Source of the DNA: Hyperoplus lanceolatus
Lineage: Eukaryota; Chordata; Actinopteri; Uranoscopiformes; Ammodytidae
Assembly (NCBI GenBank): GCA_026929865.2
Contig: CM049408.1
Location: 1,798,001-1,862,000, forward strand
DNA: 64,000 nt
Direction: 5' to 3'
The notes beneath the pieces were generated by a model that ran no database searches, had not been told where the DNA came from, and worked only from the letters and a program-made list of their open reading frames with translations. Within the stretch, counting starts at the first letter, position 1, and every line of letters begins with the position of its first letter. Below are positions 1-63,839 of the stretch, one piece after another. The translations under genes were made by a program, and so were the position numbers.

Positions 1-2157
1 CATAAATTGGCAAAAAAGTGAACTCTTGTCTTTAACAGCAAATCTTGACTGATGCAGTTTAAAACAAATCTGGTCAGTATAAAGTATCTGGGCATTAAAT
101 TATCTAAAAACCCAAAGACACTTTTTAAGTTAAATTTTACAGAAAGATTGAACAAACTAAAGGAGAACATAGAGAAATGGAGAACACTACCGATCTCCCT
201 TATTGGCCGTGTAAACGCAGTAAAGATGGTTTCCCTGAGATTTCTGTATCTATTTCAGAATGTGCCAATTTACATTCCTAAATATTACTTTAAGTCAATT
301 GATTCCATTATAATGCCTTTCATTTGGGGATATAAAGCACATAGGATCTCAAAAGCCCACCTTCAGAAACCCAGGGAGCATGGCGGACTGGGGTTACCAT
401 GTTTTTTACATTATTATTGGGTTGCCAATGCTAGAGTCATGGTGTATTGGCAATTTACATATGAAAAAGATGTTAGATCTGAACTGCCTCCCTGGCTGGC
501 CTTTGAAAAAAGTCTGATGACCCCAAAAACTTCTCTTACTGCCCTCATTTTGTCTTCTCCCAGACCACCTGCCTCCTTTAGAGGAGACCACTTTACCCTG
601 TCCAACGGTCAGAGAATTTGGAACCAAATTAGGAAGGCCTGTGAACTACCAAGCACGACCATACATGCCCCACTTTGGCATAACCATGCCTTCCCCCCAT
701 CGTTCACAGATTCAGCATTCAGAGATTGGAGCCGGAAGGGAATAGTAACAGTAGAGGACCTTTAAATAAATGGCCAATTTGCTTCATTTGACCAGTTAGT
801 ATCAAAGTTTTCACTGTCGAAAGCTCAATTTTTCAGGTATCTACAGGTGAGGAACTATGTCAGACAGATTATACCATCCTTTGAGTCCCTGCCCGCAGAG
901 GATCCATTGTCTAAAACTTTGCTGGGCTCACCAGAAGCTAAAAACCTGATTTCATCTTTTGTGGGAATATTTTTAGATCGGCAGGACAAATCCACTTTAA
1001 AAATAAAGCAAGCTTGGGAAAAAGACTTAAACATTGGAATAACTGACGATGTCTGGAGGGAGCGCTAAAAAGCATAAAATCCTGCACTATAAACTCGAGG
1101 CTTCAGTTAATTCAATTCAAGGTCACACTTAGATTGCACTACTCTAAGGTTAAACTGCATGGCTTTTTCCCAAGCCTTTCACCTTTATGTAATAGGTTTA
1201 AGATTGCAGAGGGTACACTTGCGCACCATTTTTGGGAATGTCCAAATCTCTACAATTTTTGGTGTCTTTTATTTAAATGGTATTCTGATGTTTTGGATGT
1301 TCCCTTGGCTCCTGACCCGGAAACCGCAATGTTTTGCCATTCCACAGCCCTGGAAAGATTGGACCATGAAGCACGTATAATCATAATTTATGGTATGGTA
1401 ATCTCCAAAAGATGCATATTAAAACTTTCGAAATCCGACCTGGCCCCTCGGTTCGAGGATTGGCTGAAGGAAATGATGGGCATTTTGCATGAAGAGAAAT
1501 TGAGGTACGAGATGTCAGAACACCCCCACAGATTCTCCACTATATGGGGCCCAGTGCTCCAGCACTTAAGAAAATAGCTGTGTGAGGTTTGCCCCAGTTT
1601 TGTCTTTGTTTTAGCTTTGTTTCGTTTTCTGTTTATTTATAGCTTATTTTCTTACTAATTTTTTCTTATTTATTTATTTCACTTTTGTTTATGTGAGGGA
1701 GGGGGAGGGGTGTGTATGTAATATATGTACGACTGCAACTAACGATTATTTTATTTGCAATCAATTAAACCGATTATTGATTGATTGTTGAAATGATCGC
1801 CAACCATTTTGATAAACGATTAATAATTTTGAGATTTTTTTTCGGTAGAAAATGTCCAGGTTCTCTGATTTCAACTTCTCAAATGTGATCTTTTTCTGGT
1901 TTCTTTGGCCCTGTTATGACAGTGAACTGAGATGTCCATGTGTGTTGGACATTGCAATACATTTGAGGACGTCAACATGGGCTTGGAAAGGCTGATCGGC
2001 ATTTTTGACCGTTTTCTGACATTAGGCGGACCAAAACACTATTAGTTGCAGCTCTAATTTTGTGTGTTGATTTATTCTGTCTTTTGTTTCTATTTGTTTT
2101 ATGTTTGTATGTAAAGAAAATTGCCAAAAATCACCAAAATAAAAGGTTAAAAAAAAA
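1..2157 (+). mobile_element. L1-like LINE, 3' end (ORF2 C-terminus plus 3' UTR), degraded
   Basis: Seen: reading frames at 52-765, 847-1068 and 1134-1577 give one broken protein. It resembles the part of an L1/Tx1-clade ORF2 downstream of the polymerase palm, with the motifs PISLIGRVNAVKM, FIWGYKAHRISKAHLQKP and YYWVANARVMVYW. The same positions read PLAFSLIGRIHSIKM and YYWAANIRSLVYW in the better preserved copy at 29-33 kb. A stop after 765 and frame changes near 800 and 1075 show it is dead. An AT-rich 3' UTR follows 1577 and ends in an A-run near 2157; it is interrupted by a MITE (1728-2056). The 5' part, including endonuclease and YADD motif, lies outside the window or is lost. Confidence 0.8.
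1728..2056. mobile_element. hAT-like MITE, copy 1 of 3 (TAGRGCTGCAAC family)
   Basis: Starts TACGACTGCAACTAACGATT and ends GTTGCAGCTCTA, so the termini are inverted repeats. The centre (1850-2030) is closely similar to the copies at 19006-19364 and 36398-36760, for example the shared run ACATTTGAGGACGTCAACAT. It has no coding capacity. It sits inside the LINE 3' UTR and is therefore younger than that insertion. The flanking 8-mers agree only partly, so the target duplication is not clean here. Confidence 0.75.
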
Positions 2158-2336
2158 CTACAACAGCTACTAGAGAAATATCAGCAGTCAAAGAAAGATC
2201 AAAACTACCCTTATTGAAACTATAACCAAGATCACACTTTTTAACATGAAGGATAATACACAGGCCAACAACAAACAGACACAATAGATGTTTGTTGTTG
2301 CCGCATCAATGTGACTGAAAGCACCAAGGAACCTAC
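2158..2336. other. Sequence downstream (minus strand) of the ATP10A-like exon
   Basis: Nothing recognisable apart from the intron start (GTAGGT at 2336-2331). It lies between the donor and the LINE insertion and is best read as the beginning of an atp10 intron that continues left. Confidence 0.4.
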
Positions 2337-2731
2337 CTGCTGTAAACAGGGCAGGGCAGTGTGTTGACCAAACGATCGGACCTAAACCTGCAGTAGTCTT
2401 CCAACACATCCTTTAAGGCGGTCACTGACAGCACCAGTATGATAGGAGCCAGCGCTACCCCTGGCTGGAAGGCTTCTACCACCGGCACAAAGTTAAGACA
2501 AGCAATGAAGAGGAAGTAGACGTTGGCAAAGCGATGGAGCTGCTCAAACAGGTTCTTGGGTAGGAAGGAGAGCAGGGAATACTTTGTGGTTCGGATCTGG
2601 TTGTTCTTATAGCGCTCCAGTGGTTGTTTGAGTTCCTGGTCCTCTCTGGAGGAAGGTACCACTGTCCTCTTCTTCGTCTTCAGGTTCTTCTTGGTAGATT
2701 GAAGAGGGAACAGATCTTCCAAGCAATACAT
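2337..2731 (-). CDS. ATP10A-like P4-ATPase flippase, 5' coding exon (copy 1, 5' end only)
   Basis: Family role: class-5 P4-ATPases (ATP10) move phospholipids from the outer to the cytosolic leaflet of the plasma membrane or endosomes. Seen: about 131 codons from the ATG at 2731, with a basic N-terminal tail (about residues 13-45), the family motif [21 protein letters not shown]1 ([19 protein letters not shown]) and M2 ([20 protein letters not shown]). The exon ends CAG|GTAGGT at 2337 in phase 2. The FQPGVALAP stretch and the single exon through M1-M2 point to ATP10A rather than ATP10B or D. The actuator, P and N domains, with the DKTGT aspartate, would lie left of the window. An in-frame stop lies upstream near 2778. 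A donor-like GTAGGTGAG at 2792 and an AG at 2742 would give a 51-bp intron, too short to trust. The paralogous segment at 5406-6585 is discussed in the findings. Confidence 0.8.
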
Positions 2732-2819
2732 GAGTCCACTCCTACAGTTTGTGAAACTACTGTTCAGCTTTCCACTTTAAAGCCTCACCTACCGGCAGCT
2801 GTTGAGTTGTACTTTTAAT

Positions 2820-3412
2820 TCCGGGTTTATGCTGTCCCGTGATTCTAACAGATCATATGTGGACATTTCCCCCCCCCTGTCCCTTTCTAAGTAAAGACAA
2901 TATGCACGGCTGGCAGGTGAGGTGGAATAGTTAACTACCTTGGTGACAGAATTCCTGGCCACTCCTCTCAAAGGGCTCACTCATGCTGTAAAAATCAAGG
3001 TTCAAGTGTTTCTGCTTAAAAAGGGGATTATGTAATGAGAAAAGGAGGGCCAAAGAGCAGCAGCCAAGATTGTTGTGTCATAGAGATTTTCATGACGATC
3101 CTTCAAGATGTCTGTATGGATGTTGAAAAGGTAACGTGTAGATATATGGCGGCAGCTGAAAAGAGCCGGGCTCCTAAAGGGAGCTAAAGGTCTTTCAGTT
3201 TTTTTTTCACCCTGCTACAGTGTGCCATACCTGGATGAACAAAACTGTTCATACAGCATTTCAAAAGTCCCATATCTCTCCAGCCCCCACCCATAGACTC
3301 TGACAACTCTGCCTATAGGCATAGGGTGCGCCTGGAAGCTCTACTCATGTTCCCGTGATAACAGGTTTACTGATGTTCCCATTCTACAATTCCATATGTC
3401 CTATTACAGTTG
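2820..3412. other. Unassigned stretch between the ATP10A-like exon and the Tc1-like copy
   Basis: No convincing gene or repeat boundary. On the minus strand an open stretch (2793-2867) could encode a short peptide starting MSTYDLLESRD and ending at a donor-like GTAGGTGAG. This could be a 5' exon of the ATP10A-like transcript, but no family similarity supports it. Confidence 0.25.
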
Positions 3413-3546
3413 ATTTGGTTGACAAAAGTATCCGGTCACCTGCCTTGACTCGCATATTTTTTAAGTGACCCATTCCCGTCGGTCCACCCTTTGCTGCTAC
3501 ACCAGCTTCAACTCTTCTGTGAAGGCTTTCCACATGGTTTAGGTCA

Positions 3547-4541
3547 CAGTGGTTCTCAAACTATTTTTGTCATTCGCCACTTTGGAGGTGGGAATATTTT
3601 CGAGCCTCAGCGGTCCCTTATTGTGTCAACAAAATAGTAAAGAAATAGATCAGGCTTAAAAGTTTAAAATGTATTGTAATAAAATCAAATAATACAATTT
3701 AAGAACAGAGAAAATAGAAGCATCTGTGTCATTACTTTGCTATCTGAGCCAAATAAATTGTCAAAAATGATGAGCGAGTATGTGAGTCTTAGACCTGCAT
3801 TAGTGGCTGCATCGTTCATTTTTATTGATATCGATACCATTATCCAGTCTCTATAACGATCCGAGTCTTTATCGATACCACTATCGATACTTTTCTATTA
3901 TTTTGTTGAAAGAGAACTTGTATAATTACTTTAATTGCCTATCAGATGATCAGAGCTCAAGATAGGCCGTTAAACAGGTCATAATTCCATATTTACTATT
4001 TATTTTATATTGCTGAAAAAACTAGTTTTTCACCAAAACTATATTATTCAAGATTCTCGCCCACTTTTTTTTTCTTTGCTACATTTGAACACATCATGAT
4101 GACCTTTTATAGACATTTGCCTGATATTACCGAGCCGACCTGAACACAACACATTTGACACCGTTTTGACACTCTTTTTAAGCTAATTGTTCTATATCCT
4201 GCCGATTTTAACATGGATTTGAAAACTCGATAACTATTTTTAACTGACGGGATTTCTCCACCGTCTGGTTGTGTGATTACTGCCGCTGCTTTGAATGACT
4301 GTTGATGCGCACGGTGCCGACTCCAAACCCGATGCACATTGTCTGCAGCAGCAGCTCACGGACTTTTTTTTTTTAAACTAGACTGAGGCTGAGTTGAAGG
4401 AGTATTTCTTAAACTCAAGACCGTTGAAGGTAGGCCTACAACACTTTTATATGCAGTCTATGAAGAAAAGAGCCGAATCTCCGCTCTGAACTCAAAGACG
4501 AGCTACAACACGTTGCCTCATTGTGAGCCCAGCTGTATGAT

Positions 4542-4627
<86 letters not shown>

Positions 4628-5041
4628 TCAGCTCCTATCTCCTCACAAAGTGTGGAGAACAGGCGCTTTCATCGGTCAGGTTTTGATGAAATTGACCCCA
4701 ATCACAACCTCTGTCAAAACTTTGTTTAGTTCGGTGAATGACACAGTGTGTCCACTGTGTGTGTTGCACATCTGGCGCCACACTCTTTATCAGTGATTGC
4801 TCCTGGCCCGCGCGCAGAGCCGATGAGGTCGGTATCTGTTCTATCCACATTATTAAGGTTTGTACGTGTTATTTGAAGAAGGGAAATAGCAGGGGCTCTT
4901 CTTCACTCCTCCAACTCACGCTGGGAACCGGTAAAAAAAAAATATATAAAAATAAAATAAAAACTATGTTCCACGGATCTGGAAATATTTTCCTCCCGTT
5001 TGTTGCGCCCCACCTGTCATGTCTCTATTTGAGAACCACTG
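3547..5041. mobile_element. Non-autonomous hAT-like element inserted in the Tc1 copy
   Basis: Termini are CAGTGGTTCTCAAA (3547) and TTTGAGAACCACTG (5041), a perfect 14-bp inverted repeat of the CAG...CTG hAT type. Flanks are GTTTAGGT (3537-3544) and GTTTAGGA (5042-5049), an 8-bp duplication with one mismatch; two extra bases (CA, 3545-3546) lie between the left flank and the repeat. No transposase frame is visible. It contains the GT microsatellite at 4544-4626. Confidence 0.8.
4544..4626. repeat. (GT)n microsatellite
   Basis: About 41 uninterrupted GT dinucleotides inside the hAT-like insert. Open frames across it are repeat artefacts. Confidence 0.97.
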
Positions 5042-5329
5042 GTTTAGGAGTGTGTTTATGGGCATTTTTGACCATTCTTGAAAAGCGCATTTATGAGGTC
5101 ACACACTGATGTTGGAGGAGAAGGCCTGGCTCTCAGTCTCCGCTCTAAATCATCTCAAAGGTGTTCTATCAGGTTGAGGTCAGGACTCTGTGCAGGCCAG
5201 TCAAGTCCATCCACACCAAACTCTCTCATCCATGTCTATATGGACCTTGCTTTGTGCACTGGTGCATTGTCATGTTGGATTAGGGTTAGGGTTAGTGTAT
5301 CCTGAAGTGCTTTCCACTCAGTAAATACT

Positions 5330-5396
5330 GAATTAACTATGCCTAAGTACCTCATACAACCCCACTTCTAAAATACTGAACCATCCCTTCAATATG
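5330..5396. mobile_element. Right-end fragment of the MITE family seen at 47992-48600
   Basis: The stretch TATGCCTAAGTACCTCATAC through ACTGAACCATCCCTTCAA matches the right terminus of the 48-kb MITE (TATGCCTAGGTACCCCATAC through ACTGAACTATCCCTTTAA). The left end is missing. Confidence 0.6.
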
Positions 5397-5405
5397 TTGA
5401 CTCAC

Positions 5406-5600
5406 CCACAGAACACCTGCACTACATTCTTGTTGATCTTCTTATCGAAGCGGTGGCGTCTGTAATCCTCCAGCGCGTCTTTAAATGCGATGACAGTAAG
5501 AACAACCAGCAGAGGGATCATGGTGATTTCCTTCTGAAAGGCTTCAACCACTGGCACCCAGTTCAGTAGCACTAGGAACAGGAAGTAGAGGTTTGCAATC
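5406..5600 (-). CDS. atp10d: atp10d-like exon 2 (M1-M2)
   Basis: Acceptor CTTTCTTTGTAG ends at 5601 and donor TGTGG|GTGAGT starts at 5405. The 195 bases encode 65 residues covering M1 and M2. Confidence 0.75.
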
Positions 5601-6585
5601 CTACAAAGAAAGCATAAAGCAGCAGATGAGTAATTAGACACTGCAAATGTACAACAGGAGCTGTGGAACCAACAAAGCATTTTTAATGGTGTACTACCAG
5701 ACCAGCATGCATAGGGGTGGTAGGATGACCTAGAGGACAGGTGGCCGACGACCAGTAACCATGAGGTCGCTGGTTCAGCCCCCGGCACCGGACAGGAGGG
5801 TGTTGGTAGTAAAACTAGTTTAGGCTGGTGTTAGATCTACGGTGCCCACCATCTCTACCATTGTATCCCTGAGCAAGACACTTAACCCCAAACTGCTCCA
5901 TGGGTGCTGTTCTATTGCTGACCCTGTGCTCTGACCCCCTCCAAACCGTAAAACTTGAGAGGGCCCAGAGGGGATATGCAAAAAGCCACATTTCAATGTT
6001 GTTTGGTCCAGAGACCATTATAAGGTAGGTTGAAAAAAAAGTAGTTAAGTAGCTTAATAACACAATGCTAAACATCATGCATGGAATTCTCCATTTTACC
6101 AAAGTTGATTTATAAGTTGATAGGTCTGTTTGTTTGTTGTATCTCTTCTTCTCCTAGATGGAAATTAGCCCGAAACTAAATCTTGTACAAAACATCTCTT
6201 TGCATTGTATGAGTCAAATGTATTTTGTACACGGTCCTATAAAGAAAAAGAAAAATGTAAAAAATGGGTGCTACTGTCACAAGTAAGAATCTGACCTGTG
6301 GAACTGCTGGAAGAGGTTCATGGGGATGAAAGTCAACAGGCTGTACTTTGTAGTGCGGATGGCGTTGCTCTTAAAGCTTTTGGAGGTTGCCTTGTAGTCT
6401 TGTTGGTGTGGCCCATGGCGGGCCAACACCTTCCTCCTCTTGCCACTACCTCGGTGTGGGAGGCTGTGGGCTTCTGTGGAGCTTTTGTTGGGCAGAGCAG
6501 CAGCAGGGCTAGCGTACCAGCCCTGGCCTGGGTCTACCACCAGCAGCTGCCTGACCCGGTGCTGTACCCAGTGGAGACGCTCCAT
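5406..6585 (-). CDS. atp10d: ATP10D-like P4-ATPase flippase, first two coding exons (copy 2)
   Basis: Two minus-strand exons, 6585-6296 and 5600-5406, encode the N-terminus through M2 of a class-5 P4-ATPase (phospholipid flippase). The chosen ATG begins MERLHWVQHRVRQLL, similar in character to the ATP10D start. Then come a basic RGSGKRRKVLARH patch, the motif [21 protein letters not shown]1 ([20 protein letters not shown]) and M2 (TMIPLLVVLTVIAFKDALED). The exons join CACAG|GTCAG to TTTGTAG|G, restoring Arg before IANLYF; ATP10B and ATP10D are recalled to have an intron at this position. The last exon ends TGTGG|GTGAGT in phase 2. QKEITM and the position next to commd8 favour ATP10D. No exon for the next conserved block is seen between 5406 and the ATP10A-like exon at 2731. 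The gene may be truncated, or may splice over copy 1 to exons left of the window. The usual Ser-Arg at the exon end reads Cys-Gly. Confidence 0.75.
5694..5990 (+). mobile_element. tRNA-derived SINE remnant inside the atp10d-like intron
   Basis: A tRNA-like head with a B-box-like GTCGCTGGTTCAGCC (5765-5779) is followed by the body motif CCTGAGCAAGACACTTAACC, shared in kind with the SINE at 62884-63135. The tail (GGGATATGCAAAAAGCCACATT) is of the LINE-derived type. It splits the intron between the two atp10d-like exons. Confidence 0.65.
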
Positions 6586-6642
6586 CTCCCCCACACAACA
6601 CACCTCTGGCCTCCACCCTGGAACCTTCACAATGTCCACATC
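6296..6642 (-). CDS. atp10d: atp10d-like exon 1 (5' UTR part plus coding 6585-6296)
   Basis: Coding from the ATG at 6585 to the donor CACAG|GTCAGA at 6296. Upstream on the minus strand a pyrimidine-poor but plausible acceptor, TTTGCCCTGCAG, ends at 6643. If used, the exon would carry 57 bases of 5' UTR with a further 5' exon upstream. The frame stays open upstream to another ATG at 6657, which crosses that acceptor and is therefore not preferred. Confidence 0.6.
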
Positions 6643-7449: not shown

Positions 7450-7792
7450 TGGGTGGGTGCGTGTGTGCGTTGTGTTGCTGTGTGTGTGTGTCAGGTCGGA
7501 GGCTGGAGGTGTATGAAGCAGAGCAGAGTGAGAGTGCAGCCCGCTCAGTGACTCTCCGGTCTGGGTGCAGTGGTCGGTCCCTCAGTATATGTGTCAACAT
7601 TTTAGGTAATGAGAAGGACGATGGTGACTGAATCGGCATAGGTTATGCAAACCTGTGGCAGTGCAGCGCTATCTGTTGTGGGAGATAGACAGTCGTCATT
7701 TGGCCTGCTTATTTTTTTTGTGGTTTTAAGTAGAAAAGTTCCTAATTTTATTTCATGTAGACACTTGGCTGAGGGGAGTAGAGAGAAGTTAC

Positions 7793-8712: not shown

Positions 8713-11667
8713 CAGGGGCGTTTCTAGGTCTCCAAAACATCCGGAGCTCAGCCCAAGAGGGAATAGGGTAGTGCTTTGTATACTTTATTGCGCATGCACA
8801 TTTTTTTCACAATGCTTTACCTAAATAAACAAAATAGGCAGGTAATTATAGCTTTAAATAGCTACCTGACTGCTGCTTATCCCCAAACATTTAAGGTTCC
8901 ATTCAAGTTATTTCATAGTAAAATGAATACAAGTGAGACAGACCTTACTACCCATATCAGGGGTGTCAAACTAATTTACACAAAGGGCCACTCTATGATA
9001 TGATAATCACACTAAGGGCCGACATGGAGTTTACTGAGATACCTTGTTTTCAATCCAAAAAGTAAAAACAACATACCCATGAATATATTGTATACAACCT
9101 GTGTACAGGGTCAAAGGCTAGGTTTAATTTCAACATTAAAGGGGGACAAATTTTAGGTGGGGGGTATGGGGGTGCTCCCCCAGAGATATTTGAGCGTCAA
9201 ACACTTAATTTCCTGCATTCTGGTGGATTTTTATTCATCTATCTGTGCCTTTTCTTTTCTTTTCTGTGGAGGAAAAGACAACATTCAGGTTCCTAAAGAA
9301 ACAACTAAAATAGAATAATGCAGTAAGGGTCTCAGGCATCCTGGATTTTTCAAAACTTTCTGCACATTCAAAACATATCACATGTTCTTTTTTAGGAATC
9401 AAACTCAGCACCAGTGACACTTTACATTGGTAATGTATGAGTCAAATGTATTTTGACACATACAATTACTCACAATAGCAGGCGGGGAGCTCACATCAGC
9501 ACTGATTCACCGTCCATCAGGATAGTACTCTTTCTACTCGCTTGCTTGTTCAATCTTTACATTCATTTTTGCTTTGCTCATTGGTTGCCGGTCTGTCCTC
9601 TTCCAGTTTTCCCTGGTCGTGACGAGACGGTGTGGATCTGGTCCCCCCTCCGGTAACATCTGAGAATGGACCATCAACGCAAAAGATGTTGCAGTGGTTA
9701 AGGACGCCACCTGGAGACGTGGGATGTAATCCCAGCGCTGGAAACCTTAGTTTTCCCTGGTGGAGACGAGACGGTGTGGATCCTCTGGCAGCATCTGAAG
9801 TCTTCCTGCATCCACACTATTCGCACTTTACTTAGTATTACCATGTAATCACCTGGTCAATGATTAAATTCCTTCATGATTTTCTCTACTTATGACATCT
9901 ATTGCAGTATGTCCGTCCTGGGAGAGGGATCCCTTACTCTGTCGACTCTCCCTGAGATTTCTTCAATTTTTTTATTCCCGGTAAAGGGTTTTTACTGGGA
10001 GTTTTTTCTCAGCCGAGCTAAGGGTGTAAGGGCAGGGTGTCCTATTGTATCATATTGTATCATATATCATATTGTATGAAATGTAAAGCCCACTGAGACA
10101 AATGTATTTGTGATTTTGGGCTATACAAATAAAACTGATTTGATTTGATTTGTAATGAAATGACAGCCACCATTGGAAATGAAAAAGGTGGGCAGCTAGC
10201 TAACGTTAGCTAGTTAGCTAAATTGTAACTTAAGGCAAAAGCTGGAAACAAATCATGTTAGCTTTCATCCTTAGACACTTGACACAATCAATCATCAATA
10301 TTGGCATGCTATTTAGCCTCATAGATTGGCCTTTTTACAGCCCACAGAAACATGGGGCTGTAAATAGGCCAATCTGACATATTTTCTTCAATGCAAGTTC
10401 ATCAATTCATCGCTTAAAATCTTGAGCAGTGGGACTTTCAACAGAAATTCCTAGCAGTCAGCTACACGAGTGTCCTAACCAACGGGAGCATGTGCGACGT
10501 GCGGATATGGCACAGGCTCTGCATGCAGCAAAAAAATAAATAAATTATTACTTTTTACACTCTGAAACTACCATAACAACACATATTGTAACAGTAAGAA
10601 TCCTGAAAGCTAGCCACACATTCCAGAACTAATGTCGGACTAGTAAAAGAATGATGGGGTTTGGTCAATTAAGCAAAGCAAATTTTCTAAACACTTGAAA
10701 GTAACTCAGAACAAAATACAAAATCAAATACAACATATTATAATTCAAAAGGTTTTCATAAGATTCAAATGACATATATAACCAGTTAGATTAGAACACA
10801 GTCTGGGGGTCAGAACACAGGACCCTTAGAGCCAGCTAGTGTCTGGGGGTCAAAGCATAGGAAAATCAGAACCAGCGAGAACAGCCTAGGACTCAGGAGA
10901 AGAACACAGGAGAAGACCCAACTGGATTATAACATCAGCCTGTCATACTCTACAACTAGGCTTACTCTACATTCCAGCCCTGAAGGTTACAGGGAAAGAT
11001 GAGAAGGTGCTCTTTCCGTGTGGTTGCCCCAAGTCGTCTTACTGGTGTATTTCCTTGGCATGATGGCTTTTCTACAATGTGTATGACATTAAAATAAAAC
11101 ATATGTCATGTAATATTACATTAAAATATGTTTAAGACTAAACTTAACTTGTGCCACTGTCTCACTTTCCCCCATAGCATGTGGCTCACTTTCCCCCACC
11201 ACCACAATTTGAGAAAAAACTACCTCTCTTAGCATTTCAGGCTAATCTTCAGTTATCAGCATCACATGGTTTCATATGTTGGTAGTTCATCAACACGTAT
11301 GATAGAAGTTTTTCTACGTGAATACATTTGCTTTGGCACAACAGTTGATTGAGTTGACAGCAAGAAAATGTACTTTTACATGCAAAATACCTATTTTGGT
11401 GAAAAAAACATGCTTACCACAGCACCATGAGGTCCTCTCTTTCAGGGCCAAGGGGAAATGAGAGGGGCTTGAAAACATATATCTCACATGACCACAAATG
11501 TTCTCTGTTGCCTAGATACAGGGGGTGGCTCACATTACCCGATGCCTCTGATTCCCCCGTTCTCCCCTATATATATATATATATTTTTTTTTACAAAAAA
11601 GATTTGGGGCTAATCAAATTATATCCGGGGCTTTAGCCACGAATAAAATAGCCTAGTGACGCCACTG
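8713..11667. mobile_element. Complete hAT-type element, 2.95 kb, with perfect 8-bp target duplication
   Basis: Left end CAGGGGCGTTTCTAGG and right end CCTAGTGACGCCACTG are imperfect inverted repeats. Both are flanked by the identical 8-mer GATATTAC (8705-8712 and 11668-11675), the hallmark of hAT integration. There is no long transposase frame, so it is non-autonomous or decayed. It carries an L2-like LINE 3' end (9490-10150) and, from 8960, a fragment starting CAGGGGTGTCAAACTAATTT that resembles another hAT terminus. A short stem-loop lies at 10323-10375 and a TA tract near 11568. Confidence 0.85.
9490..10150 (+). mobile_element. L2-like LINE 3' end, copy A
   Basis: From CTCACATCAGCACTG to the tail CTATACAAATAAAACTGATT this is nearly identical over about 660 bp to 58567-59224. 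It includes TCGACTCTCCCTGAGATTTC and the GGGAGTTTTTTCTCAGCCGA block typical of fish L2-type 3' UTRs. It is 5'-truncated and carries no reverse transcriptase. It sits wholly inside the hAT element. Confidence 0.75.

Positions 11668-23039: not shown

Positions 23040-41282
<18,243 letters not shown>

Positions 41283-51087: not shown

Positions 51088-63839
<12,752 letters not shown>

Follow-up and report, generated by a model that had tools for sequence, protein, structure and literature searches.

Locus and the two 5′ modules

The DNA analyzed here is a window of 64,000 nucleotides from Hyperoplus lanceolatus (contig CM049408.1, positions 1,798,001 to 1,862,000; G000:C14:1798001-1862000), whose first kilobases harbor two 5′ coding modules of an ATP10 gene in tandem on the minus strand. 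Each module encodes a cytosolic tail followed by the membrane segments M1 and M2 of a P4-ATPase. Searches covered the genome (806.7 Mb, 527 contigs, numbered with a C), and 100 kb to the left were added to the window. Two types of module can be differentiated by their motifs. The NF type is characterized by N(V/I)YF...LNFVP..AFQP..AL and occurs as a single exon in this genome, whereas the NW type is characterized by LNW.P and EITM.PL; copy 1 takes on the NW type and is split by an intron after ...QFHR. The features of the locus are as follows.

6296..6642, minus strand: copy 1 exon A, first half of the NW module (PF16209, splice-site scores, open frame)
5406..5600, minus strand: copy 1 exon B, second half of the NW module with M1-loop-M2; donor TGG/GTGAGT, phase 2
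2337..2731, minus strand: copy 2, NF module in one exon, ATG at 2731, M1-loop-M2; donor CAG/GTAGGT, phase 2
2732..5405, minus strand: interval between the modules, predicted site of a copy 2 promoter
1..2336, minus strand: part of the intron to the shared body, whose first exon starts outside the window, at C14:1797037 (window coordinate −963)

A preliminary description of the window had placed two 5′ ends of ATP10 type here, both ending in phase 2 after M2, and this is confirmed base for base by the open frames, the GT/AG borders, and the matches to PF16209 (PhoLip_ATPase_N, the P4-ATPase N-terminal domain). The ATG of exon A is located at 6585 (context GGAGATGG), and its last base, 6296, is followed by the donor CAG/GTCAGA in phase 2. 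The exon likely begins at 6642, after a strong acceptor, and encodes the cytosolic tail to ...NLFQQFHR. As the frame is open between this acceptor and the ATG, the true start of copy 1 could be farther upstream. After joining, copy 1 has 161 complete codons with two bases left over, and copy 2 has 131, likewise with two bases left over; neither contains a stop, and each ends in phase 2.

PF16209 matches copy 2 with E=1.6e-25, exon A with 5.7e-13, and exon B with 2.8e-5; exon B alone falls below the curated cut-off because the intron splits the domain. The genome contains 17 matches to this family; four of these are the ATP10 modules, and two others, on C10, were without an ATP10 match. When the whole genome was searched with copy 2, the top rank went to copy 2 itself (1.5e-83), followed by the opening exons of two further ATP10 genes (5.8e-39 and 6.2e-34) and by exon B (7.1e-14), after which the next match reaches only 1.3e-6; exon A is found at 8.4e-6. 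With exon B as query (E≤0.1), four matches remained from eight scored candidates, namely exon B itself as the sole NW-type match and three NF modules. The solved structures that match copy 2 comprise 20 distinct sequences, all of them P4 flippases and none named ATP10. Pattern searches for stray relatives of the modules in viral and prokaryote contigs returned 137 and 231 matches, respectively, none of which was confirmed.

One ATP10D body behind both modules

One ATP10 body of about 20 exons is located to the left of the window; it runs from C14:1797037 to about 1753002 and was found by searching 100 kb with provisional human sequences of ATP10A, ATP10B, and ATP10D. Each body range of the query had a single match, small overlaps and gaps aside, and the module range had two. 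The leftward search therefore found one set of downstream exons and not a separate set for each copy. The absence of a later ATP10 exon between the copies, noted before, holds in tblastn searches with ATP10A and ATP10D queries (E≤1e-3, C14:1698001-1862000), where the modules were the only in-window matches. Spliced alignment divides the body into 21 segments bordered by AG and GT; the final one extends to the end of the query used. One of these segments is false, as it was forced into a variable linker, and it is the source of the sole stop; the correct linker join is open.

Either module continues in frame and without a stop into the first body exon, with ...VQVFCG-KQKAYIQQCWQDV for copy 1 and ...CPVYSR-KQKAYIQQCWQDV for copy 2. 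In longer context, the open joins read ...VFCGKQKAYIQQ for copy 1 (VFCG-KQK) and ...VYSRKQKAYIQQ for copy 2 (VYSR-KQK). The predicted body holds the P4-ATPase motifs DGET, PISL, and DKTGT in the form of LDGETNL, LIPISLYVS, and FSDKTGTLTENK. Of the earlier proposal that both copies are alternative first modules of one body to the left, the single set of downstream exons within 100 kb and the two open joins speak in favor, while the equal phase of the two ends is in itself no evidence. The phase at the end of M2 is identical in all three ATP10 genes found in this genome and is thus inherited, so that the notion that equal phase proves alternative splicing was rejected.

The three ATP10 bodies of the genome are located on C14, at C9:5520830-5561648, and at C8:8753821-8772539. 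A tree of six sequences (939 common columns, 200 bootstraps) pairs the C14 body with human ATP10D, that of C8 with human ATP10B, and that of C9 with human ATP10A, all at 100% support; in the topology test of the body, tree 2 was rejected (few replicates). The human references are provisional sequences. That of ATP10B matches 13 of 13 published positions and the published length, none of these positions being inside M1-M2, and that of ATP10D agrees with the published position E215.

The preliminary description had read the two copies as an ATP10D-like and an ATP10A-like start side by side. A pair of ATP10A and ATP10D genes is not supported, because the sole body is ATP10D and the orthologues of ATP10A and ATP10B are found on C9 and C8. 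The gene at the window edge is one ATP10D with two, probably alternative, 5′ modules, not an ATP10A-ATP10D pair; a tandem pair was rejected, as copy 2 has no ATP10A body of its own in the window or the 100 kb to its left.

The neighborhood of the locus agrees with this assignment. A gene for a β subunit of the GABA-A (γ-aminobutyric acid type A) receptor lies upstream and on the same strand at all three ATP10 loci, at 62514-63038 (minus strand) in the window, at C8:8745272, and at C9:5477410. Within the window, the feature concerned is:

51088..51597, minus strand: open reading frame containing the final coding exon of a GABRB1-like gene, which is the upstream neighbor on the same strand as ATP10D

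The β gene on C14 is best matched by human β-1 (6.8e-48), followed by β-2 (1.6e-41) and β-3 (2.8e-38), and the gene upstream of the C8 ATP10 is closest to β-2. In human, ATP10D, ATP10B, and ATP10A presumably adjoin GABRB1, GABRB2, and GABRB3, respectively. The GABRB1-like neighbor marks the locus as the GABRB1 (ATP10D) block. The genome holds six β-type matches with at least 90% identity, of which the remaining three are located on C13 (two) and C24. Near these other β genes, P4 N-terminal matches are absent on C13, and one on C24 is 0.9 Mb away.

Several repeats and inserted fragments surround the modules. The 107 bases at 7479-7585 (plus strand), which lie beside a (GT)n tract some 0.9 kb upstream of copy 1, are a 100% identical inverted copy of C14:1782458-1782564, consisting of a (GT)n intron end and the first part of an ATP10D body exon (RRLEVYEAEQSES...); the fragment looks like a recent templated insertion. 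The intron between exons A and B harbors a dispersed repeat (5718-5999) with 81-82% identical copies at C14:1777.6-1778.8 kb, in the region of the shared body. A further repeat at 10548-11593 has copies of 91-93% identity near C14:1752 kb and at C14:1783.5-1786.0 kb. Fragments of open reading frames that by eye resemble long interspersed nuclear elements lie on the plus strand at 49-1577, within the intron on the left side of copy 2, and at 27555-32511.

Module type, gene identity, and constraint

Carriers of the NF module in this genome are the ATP10 genes on C9 and C8 and copy 2. Human ATP10A is taken here to carry an NF module and human ATP10B and ATP10D to carry NW modules, as judged from the provisional sequences. 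The C8 gene, an ATP10B by its body, thus has a module that is 59-66% identical to the other NF modules versus 44% to that of human ATP10B (88 columns). Over the same number of columns, the identity of copy 2 amounts to 70.5% with the C9 module and to 61.4% with the C8 module. A second module at C8 (from 8745501) or C9 (from 5515001) was not found by tblastn, which beyond the known modules gave chance-level matches only.

The split between NF and NW modules in the module tree is supported by an approximate likelihood-ratio value of 99.9 and an ultrafast bootstrap of 100. When the tree is rooted with three P4 outgroups, support for the root is weak (41.5/49). Copy 1 is placed within NW, without an order of ATP10D over ATP10B, and the order within NF is likewise weak. 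Trees in which the modules follow their genes were rejected (difference in log likelihood 49.6; approximately unbiased (AU) test, p 0.0006 and 0.0002 in two runs), as was a sister relation of the C8 module to that of human ATP10B (AU p 0.003). A recent tandem duplication, in which the two copies are sisters, was rejected for two topologies (AU p 0.005 and 0.0017), and the copies differ at 50 of 86 third codon positions. A sister relation to the C9 ATP10A module was rejected neither for the C8 module (AU p 0.52) nor for copy 2 (0.26) nor for both together (0.06). The best module tree does not join copy 2 with the C8 module. By these comparisons, module type does not track gene identity.

Constraint was judged from one genome and the provisional human proteins through codon-position differences, relative rates, and the survival of open reading frames. 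Compared with one another, the four modules in the genome differ at 43-56 of 86 third codon positions and at 10-21 of 86 second positions. High divergence of the third positions with conservation of the second indicates that both modules are old and have been under purifying selection. At the DNA level, the resemblance between copy 2 and the other modules stops within a few bases of the exon bounds. Relative rates of the modules are even and raised in neither, at 10:14 for copy 2 versus the C8 module (outgroup C9) and 9:6 for copy 1 versus human ATP10D (outgroup human ATP10B), compared with 110:71 for the C14 body versus human ATP10D (same outgroup). Signs of a pseudogene, i.e., stops, frameshifts, or lost splice sites, were found in neither module. 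Neutral decay was simulated in a simple form, with 4000 runs a point and indels at 0.1 of substitutions; for copy 1, intactness included the three splice dinucleotides. With 0.05 substitutions per site, copy 2 stayed intact in 9.5% of the runs and copy 1 in 4.7%; at 0.1, the values drop to 0.95% and 0.1%, respectively.

Probable alternative use of the modules

Splice sites were scored by a simple weight matrix and ranked against the 4148 AGs and 3862 GTs of the window. The acceptors of exon A and exon B are in the top 0.9% and 1.0%, respectively, and the AG with the highest score immediately ahead of copy 2 reaches no more than the top 21%. The donors of all three exons are in the top 0.2-1% of the GTs (exon A donor, top 0.8%). 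Without a strong acceptor just upstream, copy 2 reads as a first exon. RNA from a distal promoter would include the two NW exons, A and B, possibly preceded by another exon, and would skip copy 2, which lacks a strong acceptor. A second promoter between the modules would yield RNA that begins in copy 2 (NF) and is spliced directly to the body. The two products would be identical from the A domain on; their cytosolic tails and entire M1-M2 hairpins would set them apart, and promoter choice may select the pump form by tissue. With either module, the ATP10D body is predicted to act as a lipid flippase.

At a probability of roughly 0.7, the gene is read as an ATP10D whose two 5′ modules, in tandem before one body, are used alternatively. 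A number of points weigh against this. Within 500 bases upstream, neither module has a CpG island; the DNA upstream of copy 2 has a GC content of 0.45 and an observed/expected CpG ratio of 0.32, the C8 module likewise lacks an island, and the DNA upstream of the C9 module is richer (ratio 0.85). The ATG of copy 2 stands in a weak context (CTCATGT). Copy 1 ends with VFCG, whereas all six other modules compared end with S, G, or E followed by R. The support comes from the sequence of one genome, and a very recent loss of one module is possible.

These points feed the explanation that the gene uses a single 5′ end and that the other module, though an ancient alternative, became a relic recently through loss of its promoter. 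The weak ATG context of copy 2, its lack of a strong acceptor and of a CpG island, and the altered terminal R codon of copy 1 would fit such a loss, and the single modules of the sibling genes on C8 and C9 are consistent with losses there. On the other side, both frames are open with good donors, all splice dinucleotides are present, second positions are conserved despite the diverged third positions, rates are raised in neither copy, and neutral survival of an intact module is at most 1% by 0.1 substitutions per site. A relic, which the preliminary description had considered for copy 2, is thus disfavored and, for either module, unlikely. Slightly more probable, yet still unlikely, is an exon transfer by gene conversion or copying, in which the NF modules of ATP10D and/or ATP10B stem from the ATP10A of this genome; it would be compatible with alternative use. 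The unrejected sister relations to the C9 module, the higher identity of copy 2 to C9 than to C8, and the separation of copy 2 from C8 in the best tree argue for it. The transfer would have to be ancient, since copy 2 and the C9 module differ at 56 of 86 third positions and their flanks share no detectable similarity, and it would require two events or one that predates the split of ATP10B and ATP10D. By eye, moreover, the tail of copy 2 (RTVVP) is nearer to human ATP10D and ATP10B (RIVVP and RVVFP) than to ATP10A.

Copy 2 had also been proposed as the truncated start of a separate tandem gene, here an ATP10A, and is indeed nearest in type to the ATP10A modules. The lack of a second body in the window or the 100 kb to its left, the complete ATP10A orthologue on C9 (bootstrap 100), and the lack of detectable DNA similarity between copy 2 and the C9 gene start outside the exon render this highly improbable. 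A false join of modules from different places during assembly is hardly credible either: C14 measures 32.5 Mb, the 164 kb read are free of N, searches with exon B and copy 2 found no identical second copy of either in the genome, and the upstream GABRB1 on the same strand fits the locus.

An origin of the two modules in an ancestral vertebrate ATP10, at least the ancestor of ATP10B and ATP10D, that was two-headed with NF and NW modules is tentatively put forward, at somewhat less than even odds. The paralogues of the GABA-receptor blocks would then have sorted the modules: ATP10A may have kept NF, human ATP10B and ATP10D NW, the ATP10B of this fish NF, and its ATP10D both, which would serve as a natural switch of lipid specificity.

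To our knowledge, vertebrate ATP10A, ATP10B, and ATP10D genes (class 5 P4-ATPases) are described with one M1-M2 module each. The gene studied here shares the family motifs and has a canonical N terminus with each module but combines both types in one gene. Alternative first exons of which each ohnologue retained one are known from MITF in teleosts. In both systems, alternative 5′ modules on one body are partitioned by duplicates, but the MITF ends change the tail and the expression, whereas those of ATP10D would exchange two transmembrane (TM) helices of a pump. In NKCC2/SLC12A1 (exon 4 variants) and SLC25A3 (exon 3 variants), splice choice alters a membrane segment and hence substrate handling. 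These are mutually exclusive internal exons, in contrast to the alternative first modules of one and two exons of a P-type ATPase found here. The titles and abstract openings of open-access papers retrieved for teleost ATP10 and for alternative 5′ ends of P4 genes do not describe the arrangement; automatic annotations may already list two isoforms.

The hairpin that differs between the modules is part of the region that discriminates substrates. According to the review PMC12424579, the lipid entry site involves TM1, 2, 4, and 6, and laboratory swaps of TM segments between Drs2 and Dnf1 located the discrimination residues in TM1-4, where the TM1 site G230 of Dnf1 is critical and Gly or Gln at this site strongly affects the transport of phosphatidylserine and glucosylceramide. 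In comparison with those swaps, as cited in that review, the exchange in ATP10D would be natural, restricted to TM1-2, and within one gene. At the entry-gate pair that aligns with Dnf1 G230-A231 (structure chain numbering), copy 1 has N-W and copy 2 has N-F, and the lumenal loop reads FQKEITM versus FQPGVAL. ATP10D flips glucosylceramide at the plasma membrane (PMC10910339), and the basis for its specificity (glucosylceramide only) as opposed to that of ATP10A (phosphatidylcholine preferred) is called unclear in PMC12424579. A module swap could shift the choice between an ATP10D-like preference for glucosylceramide and an ATP10A-like preference for phosphatidylcholine and/or the regulation of the pump; a module-dependent shift of lipid choice is plausible.

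If alternative use of the two modules is true, the gene would offer a natural swap of the substrate-gating hairpin on an otherwise identical flippase, and two isoforms that differ only in the M1-M2 module would be a direct test of ATP10D versus ATP10A lipid specificity. As fish ATP10B and its human orthologue may differ in their M1-M2 module, function should not be transferred across species by gene name alone. The arrangement suggests that exon sorting, beyond point mutation alone, diversified the ATP10 paralogues, and the two modules could allow a single gene to encode a pair of pumps that differ in lipid choice.

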